From Dyella silvae (lineage in GTDB: Bacteria > Pseudomonadota > Gammaproteobacteria > Xanthomonadales > Rhodanobacteraceae): DNA of 64,000 nucleotides. Made by a program: the position numbers and the translations under genes. The first letter of the stretch is position 1; the number at the start of each line of letters is the position of its first letter. The notes under the pieces were generated by a model. It did no database searches, was not told where the DNA came from, and saw nothing but the letters and a program-made list of their open reading frames with translations. Where the stretch lies: positions 434,001 through 498,000 of the forward strand of contig NZ_JAPJBQ010000001.1 of the NCBI RefSeq assembly GCF_026421305.1. Direction: 5' to 3'. This document shows positions 44,618 to 49,359 of the stretch, in pieces.

Positions 44618-44822
44618 GGTCGGCGTTCCCTCCTCGTGCTCGGTGAGCGGCAAGGCCTGGCGCCGCAAAGGCCGTCTTCTCCATCGACCGGTGCCACGCA
44701 CGGTAGCGGCTGAGAGCTCCGTGGTACGTGAACGCGCAGCCGCGGTCGCGGAGGACACGCCCCTCGCTTTTTCTCCTGAGAAAAGTGGCCTTAGTGACTG
44801 AAATGTCGTCAATTATTGCTTG

Positions 44823-44850
44823 TTATTTTACGTGACGTCACTTAAAATAA
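44823..44850. promoter_or_regulatory. 28-bp near-perfect palindrome (operator candidate)
   Basis: Half-sites TTATTTTACGTGAC and GTCACTTAAAATAA mirror at 13 of 14 positions about the centre, and the core is TGACGTCA. It sits 26 bp before the ATG of the small basic protein, overlapping the expected promoter (a -10-like TACACT lies at 44853-44858). It is AT-rich in a GC-rich chromosome. Confidence 0.75.
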
Positions 44851-44875
44851 GCTACACTTAAACGGAGGATTTGCC

Positions 44876-45133
44876 ATGGTTGATCCACTCGATCCCGGTA
44901 CGCTCGCCTTGCCGCTGAGCTTCAAGCGGTCGCGCGGCCGTCCGCGCAAACCCAATGCGTTGACGGCAGCGGAGCGCGCCCGGCGCTACCGCGCGAGAAA
45001 AAAGACTTTGTCCACGCATGTCGTGCCACTGGCCGTGCACAACCAGGTGATGCGCGAGCGCGACGAGGCGAGAGTGCAGGTGACGCATTTGCGCGCCGAG
45101 CTGGAGCAATTGCTGCGCCAGTTTTCGCAGTAA
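44876..45133 (+). CDS. Small basic protein with AT-hook-like and coiled-coil segments
   Basis: An 85-residue protein with strong ribosome-binding site GGAGG. It has an AT-hook-like core (KRSRGRPRKP, residues 18-27), a very basic stretch AAERARRYRARKK, and a C-terminal helix with heptad-like hydrophobics (VMRERDEARVQVTHLRAELEQLL). Similar ALTxAERxRRYR peptides occur in phage and plasmid regions. I do not recognise a named gene. It probably binds DNA; the adjacent 28-bp palindrome is an attractive target. Confidence 0.65.
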   Translation: MVDPLDPGTLALPLSFKRSRGRPRKPNALTAAERARRYRARKKTLSTHVVPLAVHNQVMRERDEARVQVTHLRAELEQLLRQFSQ

Positions 45134-48585: not shown

Positions 48586-49359
48586 ATGAAAAGGCATCTG
48601 CTCGCGCTATCCGTATTCAGTGCGGTCCTTGGTTTCGGTATCGGCAGCTCAGTTGCCTTCGCGGCAGACGCGCCCGCCACATCGGATGGTGCGCAGGACG
48701 CAAGTAAGCTCACGTCGTCGTACACCACGTTCGCCGGATCCAGCACCAATGCGCAGGCATTGGTGAGCGGATTGCGCAATGGCACGTCCATTGTTCTGAT
48801 TACGCCCGCCACGGCCACCAGCCCCGCCGTGCAAACCACCTTTACGCCCGATACGGGCAAGATGGGCTACGGCAACGTCAATATCGCGCTTGCAATGGCG
48901 CAGGCGGACCTGGCCAAGGCAGGTATCACTCAGCCCACGGCCGCACAGATTGAGGCCGCATTGAATGGCGGAACTCTGGCGGGAAGCCATGGTCCGGTGC
49001 AGTTGCCAGGTGTGCTGGCACTTCGCGACAAGCACGATGGATGGGGTGGTGTTGCAAAGTCGCTCGGTCTGAAGCTTGGTGCCGTTGAGCATGCTGCCAA
49101 GGCGAACGGGCCCGTGCCGGATCACGACGACGTCGCACATGCCGACAAGGACGCTAAGGCCGACAAGGACGCCAAGGCGGATAAGGATGCCAAGGCCGAC
49201 AAGGACGCCAAGGCGGACAAGGACGCCAAGGCCGACAAGATCGCCAAGGCAGACAAAGTGGCTGACGTCAGCCACCCCGATAAAGTCGACCGCCCTGAAA
49301 AGGCTGACCGCCCGGACAAGCCGGAGCGTCCTGACAAGCCCGAGCGCAGCGGTCGCTGA
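48586..49359 (+). CDS. Secreted protein with Lys/Asp-rich C-terminal repeats
   Basis: A 257-residue protein with a signal peptide (MKRHLLALSVFSAVLGFGIGSSVAFAA). The middle part has helices with DKHDGWGGVAKSLGLKLGAVEH. From residue 186 five copies of ADKDAK follow, then ADKIAK, ADKVAD, and a DRPEKADRPDKPERPDKPERSGR tail. The charged repeats are highly soluble and alternating in charge. I do not recognise the family. It is followed by a terminator and then by a beta-barrel gene on the same strand, with which it may work as a pair. Confidence 0.75.
   Translation: MKRHLLALSVFSAVLGFGIGSSVAFAADAPATSDGAQDASKLTSSYTTFAGSSTNAQALVSGLRNGTSIVLITPATATSPAVQTTFTPDTGKMGYGNVNIALAMAQADLAKAGITQPTAAQIEAALNGGTLAGSHGPVQLPGVLALRDKHDGWGGVAKSLGLKLGAVEHAAKANGPVPDHDDVAHADKDAKADKDAKADKDAKADKDAKADKDAKADKIAKADKVADVSHPDKVDRPEKADRPDKPERPDKPERSGR
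49141..49266 (+). repeat. 18-bp tandem repeats within the secreted protein gene
   Basis: Seven units of 18 bp, typified by GCCGACAAGGACGCCAAG, encode ADKDAK, five near-identical and two diverged. Silent differences between units (gcc/gcg, gac/gat) show some age. The array is in frame, so copy-number changes would lengthen or shorten the protein. Confidence 0.9.

Follow-up and report, generated by a model that had tools for sequence, protein, structure and literature searches.

A candidate self-regulating AT-hook protein of Dyella and filamentous phages, its promoter palindrome, and a possible bZIP-like mode of DNA reading

A 64,000-nucleotide stretch of the Dyella silvae genome (the window) carries the gene of an 85-residue protein, P0001, beneath a promoter that is largely occupied by a palindrome. 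We propose, with a probability of about 0.7, that P0001 is a small, dimeric autorepressor, which would read the palindrome as its own operator by a bZIP-like contact in the major groove, helped by an AT-hook, and would thereby block RNA polymerase. The original prediction of a self-regulating small DNA-binding protein is strongly supported by sequence comparison, as homologues have retained the site next to them, a genome normally contains only one copy, and site and protein co-vary.

The palindrome and its gene in Dyella

The features of the locus are listed in Table 1. As had been claimed, a nearly perfect palindrome lies over the promoter of the small protein: apart from TTATTTTACGTGACGTCACTTAAAATAA, the window contains no 28-bp palindrome with one mismatch or fewer among its pairs, and 200 dinucleotide-preserving shuffles gave on average 0.03 such palindromes, with a maximum of one. 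The octamer described as its core, TGACGTCA, was found at 44833–44840. Since the promoter hexamers are separated by the classical 17 bp, the palindrome occupies the spacer and overlaps both of them. An operator inside a spacer of this length would favor repression over activation of the MerR type.

Table 1. Features of the regulator locus (positions are those of the window).
Feature	Position	Strand	Basis or remark
Sigma-70-type promoter of the regulator gene, TTGTTA-17-TAAAAT	44820..44848	+	Consensus scan, 9/12 matches
Proposed operator, 28-bp palindrome TTATTTTACGTGACGTCACTTAAAATAA	44823..44850	.	13/14 pairs matched; fills the -35/-10 spacer
Operator core GTGAC|GTCAC, two GTNAC half-sites with gap 0, containing TGACGTCA	44832..44841	.	
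Good Shine-Dalgarno sequence, GGAGGA	44864..44869	+	Sequence
Regulator gene, 85 codons (P0001)	44876..45133	+	Single copy in own genome; 20/20 genomes of the genus; purifying selection
AT-hook motif RGRPRK, residues 20–25	44933..44950	+	Sequence; RGRP invariant in alignments A1 and A9
Basic helix AAERARRYRARKKTLSTH, residues 31–48, proposed reading head	44966..45019	+	AF2; columns X and X-4 informative on the operator base
Ala35 codon, putative specificity position X (bZIP position -3)	44978..44980	+	Highest mutual information with operator base N, z 12.4
Coiled-coil-like helix, residues 52–84, proposed dimerization	45029..45127	+	AF2 pLDDT about 94–98

The regulator is a single-copy core gene of Dyella, and the palindrome, when looked for beside homologues, was found at the gene in all 20 genomes, and across genera as well. 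Among the 20 genomes, mean column identity reached 0.975 in the 10-bp core and 0.88 across the whole palindrome of 28 bp, compared to 0.56 in either flank; the palindrome is thus a phylogenetic footprint in the genus. We scanned the genomes with a relaxed pattern, TTTNNNGTNACGTNACNNNAAA, allowing one mismatch and using the reversed pattern as a control. Exactly one site was present in 18 genomes and two in the other 2, while the reversed pattern gave none in the Dyella genomes. In the genome of origin, a regulon search returned one site only, even at up to 3 mismatches. With about one site per genome throughout the genus, and 2 extra sites in 2 genomes, the idea of a regulon sharing the operator was rejected. 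In one Dyella genome, a second perfect site, TTTGTAGTTACGTTACTACAAA (G009:C33:115569-115590), is distant from the regulator gene.

In 18 of the 19 other Dyella genomes, the regulator is divergent from an aspartyl/asparaginyl-hydroxylase gene (the remaining genome had no hydroxylase match), a neighborhood that is absent from other genera. This fixed synteny, along with the single-copy core status, indicates an old core gene rather than a recent mobile insertion. The suggested origin from a mobile element is thus half right: the Dyella gene is old and has a fixed neighbor, but its relatives are regulators of filamentous phages.

P0001 was said to combine RGRPRK, an arginine-rich helix and a coiled coil, and all three could be located. 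In the AF2 model, the N-terminus, including the AT-hook, is disordered and is followed by the two predicted helices, with a pLDDT in the basic-helix region of 94 over residues 31–40 and 85 over residues 41–50. The model of a phage relative has the same two-helix plan with a longer gap between the helices. The ratio pN/pS was 0.17 for residues 1–45, reflecting strong constraint, and 0.50 for residues 46–82, where constraint is weaker. The N-terminal peptide MVDPxDPGTLALPL (44876–44917) is near-invariant from hosts to phages, yet has low predicted order.

Database searches with P0001 gave little. Scans with Pfam and NCBIfam returned only chance-level matches (Nup54, SdpR), as did PADLOC (coiled-coil matches); Foldseek of the model against the PDB gave no fold match, and there was no match by tblastn against phages and plasmids or in Rfam. 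A VIA-align Z of 4.6 between the model and a long helix was dismissed as not meaningful. The Pfam AT_hook family (PF02178) was matched by a phage relative, P0002, with 17.9 bits against a cut-off of 17.4; P0001 was not listed, though RGRPRK is present. Elsewhere in the window, the ORF at 48586–49359 has ADKDAKADKDAK-like repeats in tandem close to its C-terminal end (49122–49340).

Homologues and operators in other genera and filamentous phages

Homologues were found in other genera of the same family, in a neighboring family, in the Burkholderiaceae and on filamentous-phage contigs of ~7 kb. They have in common an N-terminal module of ~45 residues, M-x-D-x-x-D-P-G-T ... RGRPRK ... A-[EQ]-R-X-x-x-[YF]-R-x-R. 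Behind this module, the C-terminus has been swapped among relatives (coiled coil, RHH-like region or something else), while the module and the site persist. In the inovirus contig L130, genes for an HUH-type replication protein and a Zot-like protein precede the regulator, and the contig carries the exact Dyella-type operator along with Ala at position X (see below). The relative in Pseudomonas phage 42-1 is annotated as a “replication regulatory protein”. The PHROG families matched (10506, 9651, 6334 and 23279) have no function assigned in PHROGs. Inovirus Zot genes also occur in 6 of the 20 Dyella genomes. Descent of the Dyella gene from filamentous-phage regulators, or exchange with them, is likely.

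We measured the operator form within 130 bases upstream of 116 distinct homologues. The arrangement GTNAC-(0-2)-GTNAC, with 8 or more of its 9 letters matching, was present in 74% of them and in 3.2% of dinucleotide shuffles, and perfect sites were present in 60% and 0.12%, respectively. A promoter arrangement like that in Dyella surrounded the site in 62 of 86 distinct homologues that had one, compared to 19% of random intervals. The half-sites are GTGAC|GTCAC in Dyella and GTTAC|GTAAC in other genera, with gaps of 1–2 bp in many relatives. A GTNAC-type site is lacking close upstream in the RHH-fused phage relatives and in many short relatives from the Burkholderiaceae.

Homologues of the phage and Burkholderiaceae type also have a further site inside the regulator gene, ~200 bases downstream (L127:5107, L124:5139, L128:5157, L110:4374, L108:5118 and L130:5305). 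This intragenic site, GTTACgGTAACGAAAA, codes for the conserved peptide VTVT(K/E)N. In L130, the corresponding site, GTGACGTCACGAAAAA, codes for RDVTKN and has the same half-site letter as the promoter site. In one viral-contig homologue (L131:2388-2648), the AT-hook is preceded by several VT(K/E)N repeats, which resemble repeated half-sites in translation. In the inovirus relatives L132, L134, L135, L137 and L177, the module is joined to a C-terminal region weakly similar to YbfE, which is LexA-regulated, and to CopB.

Several known proteins were considered alongside the family. A conserved AT-hook-motif protein of Cupriavidus and Ralstonia filamentous prophages, A3AADRAFT_00010, has an N-terminal RGR/AT-hook (PMC10011098). 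The inovirus homologues described here resemble it, by its description, in build and place; that paper names no operator, specificity rule or host homologues. The RHH-type inovirus relatives match the NCBIfam models PRK11675 (E = 1.6e-4) and PRK13702 (E = 0.003), corresponding to YbfE and CopB/RepA, far below the curated cut-offs; P0001 matched neither the RepB-RCR_reg/CopB nor the YbfE profile. RSS0 ORF13 and Pf4r, known repressors of filamentous phages, were rejected, since they are described as HTH or P2-repressor-like, which is another kind of protein.

Co-variation of a basic-helix residue with the operator

We denote by N the third base of the left GTNAC half-site, and by X one residue of the basic helix, Ala35 in P0001. 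In a first set of homologues, Ala at X occurred with GG in 34 of 38 cases (the other four have G in one half), Ser with one GG, Met with AA in 13 of 14 (the fourteenth, L066, reflects a register ambiguity) and Gln with TT in 28 of 33. The rule was written down beforehand and then tried on a held-out set of new loci from a Burkholderiaceae-type family. There, Ala or Ser went with GG in 8 of 9 cases and Gln in 0 of 9 (p = 4e-4). Just one of the 9 Gln cases had TT; the others were asymmetric or had other letters. No Met with a site was present in the held-out set. The proposition that Ala reads G and Gln does not thus held in the held-out comparison, while “Gln reads T” did not generalize, and this failure led us to reject a simple one-residue code for the whole family. 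Exceptions are Pseudomonas L222 and L223, which have A[EQ]KQ (i.e., Gln) with GTAAC, phage L122 with GTCAC, and the RHH-type L177.

When all sites were pooled, Ala occurred with GG in 42 of 47, Met with AA in 13 of 14, and Gln with TT in 29 of 42 and with GG in none of the 42. The Fisher p for the link between X and base ranged from 1e-9 to 6e-6 on reduced sets. Of 25 columns compared with N over 106 sites, X ranked first in mutual information and X-4 second (z 9.1), and they remained the top two after redundancy reduction. On a tree of the family, X changes ~11 times and N 12 times, yet only 14 joint changes are required, although this tree, from ~50 residues, is weak and the related sequences are not independent.

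Likeness to bZIP factors and alternative explanations

In a HMMER search against the PDB, the best match was the bZIP factor Pap1, with a non-significant E of 0.013, and three of the top four matches were bZIPs; a reversed-sequence control profile gave E = 0.11 with a homeodomain, and composition favors such matches. Pap1 reads TTAC with NxxAQxxFR, in which Asn86, Ala89, Gln90, Phe93 and Arg94 touch the bases (PMC7261193). When YR-x-R of the family is laid on F-R-x-R of Pap1, a register that HMMER gave unprompted, X falls on Gln90 and X-4 on Asn86; the two most informative columns thus coincide with positions -3 and -7, at which bZIPs contact the bases. GCN4 and CREB, which read TGAC, have Ala at the position of Gln90. 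Ala likewise goes with TGAC in this family, and Gln mostly with the TTAC of Pap1. It is this register, with the base contacts of Pap1 and the pairing of Ala with TGAC in GCN4 and CREB, that leads us to propose a bZIP-like dimer on two GTNAC half-sites.

As in eukaryotic bZIPs, a basic helix is followed by a coiled-coil-like helix, with Arg at +1 and +3, an aromatic residue at 0 and the putative specificity residue at -3, and the target is a palindrome of two short half-sites. In bZIP sites, the 4-bp half-sites abut or overlap; those of the family abut too, apart from the gaps of 1–2 bp in many relatives, and position -3 appears to help set the specificity, allowing for the incomplete Gln rule. 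Unlike bZIPs, P0001 has Ala31 at -7 in place of the invariant Asn and Arg at -4 in place of Ala; the AT-hook in front, the Met-TAAC class and the gaps are further differences. Of the bZIP signature N-x7-[RK], the family keeps an invariant Arg at +1, but no invariant Asn, since position -7 varies (A, D, G, N, P, Q, S). No Pfam bZIP profile was matched by P0001 at E up to 10 or by ten relatives at E up to 1. The basic-to-zipper helix is interrupted in the AF2 models, at residues 49–51 in P0001 and 50–59 in the phage form, and where a first zipper Leu would follow nine residues after the Arg, residue 48 is His.

By sequence, then, the protein is not a member of the bZIP family, but it is plausibly a bZIP in its manner of working. 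The original prediction took the likeness as resemblance only. This was sound with regard to membership, as the family signature is lacking, and too cautious with regard to the manner of working, where the register, the half-sites and part of the rule agree. We give slightly less than even odds to the stronger proposal of a true bZIP-type reading head in a bacterial and filamentous-phage family, converged with or distantly related to the eukaryotic one. Such a head would use the eukaryotic specificity position, follow the eukaryotic code in part (Ala TGAC, Gln TTAC) and extend it by a Met-TAAC class of its own. The label bZIP-like has been given to the bacterial regulators RptR and TodS (PMC12255303, citing Lau et al. 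1997). They resemble the present family in their small palindromic sites, and RptR represses its own promoter. They differ from it, by description, in that RptR is a four-helix protein reading TAGCTA and TodS is a histidine kinase.

The same promoter might be bound without bZIP-like reading, by a β-strand in the style of ribbon-helix-helix proteins or by the AT-hook alone, the link to X then reflecting shared ancestry. The phage relatives that join the module to a C-terminus weakly matching YbfE and CopB, the VTVT segment between the two helices of phage forms and the lack of a universal Gln rule all point this way. We consider it unlikely, since the AF2 models of P0001 and of the phage form contain no strand, module and site stay together when the C-terminus is swapped, X and X-4 lead the 25 columns, and changes of X and N often coincide on the tree. 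That some other host regulator uses the palindrome as its operator, with the small protein only a target, is very improbable. The site does sit in an ordinary promoter; however, with no other site in 18 of the 20 genomes, such a regulator would control this gene alone, and the site accompanies the gene in other genera, at other loci and in phages, with a letter that tracks a residue of the small protein itself.

Two other explanations concern the purpose of the protein. Its main job could be global, as an AT-hook nucleoid protein similar in effect to H-NS or Lsr2, for which self-control would be homeostasis. The AT-hook, the strong positive charge, the single specific site per genome and the core-gene status agree with such a role, and the Cupriavidus prophage AT-hook protein was proposed to be H-NS/Lsr2-like (PMC10011098); P0001 matched no Pfam nucleoid protein, and we regard this role as possible, if doubtful. 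Alternatively, a domesticated filamentous-phage regulator may have been kept for immunity, the host protein binding the operators of incoming inoviruses. This would fit the Dyella-type operator and Ala in L130, the Zot genes in some Dyella genomes and the fact that in 18 of the 20 genomes prophages contribute no Dyella-type site. We find it rather unlikely; a housekeeping role in addition is suggested by the core status and the fixed synteny.

Under the autorepressor model that we prefer, two copies of the protein would pair through the C-terminal helix. By analogy with bZIPs, each copy would insert its basic helix into the major groove at one GTNAC half-site, residue X helping to choose the third base, while the N-terminal AT-hook may grip the A/T arms of the palindrome. 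With the -35/-10 spacer occupied, RNA polymerase would be blocked and the protein presumably kept at a low set level.

The invention of bZIP factors is credited to eukaryotes (PMC12255303), and bZIP-like DNA reading is scarcely known in bacteria. If the proposal is true, the family would represent a compact bacterial and phage case of convergence, or deep kinship, with bZIP DNA recognition. It would also provide a working annotation for the unnamed filamentous-phage proteins of the four PHROG families, along with a pattern for finding their operators.
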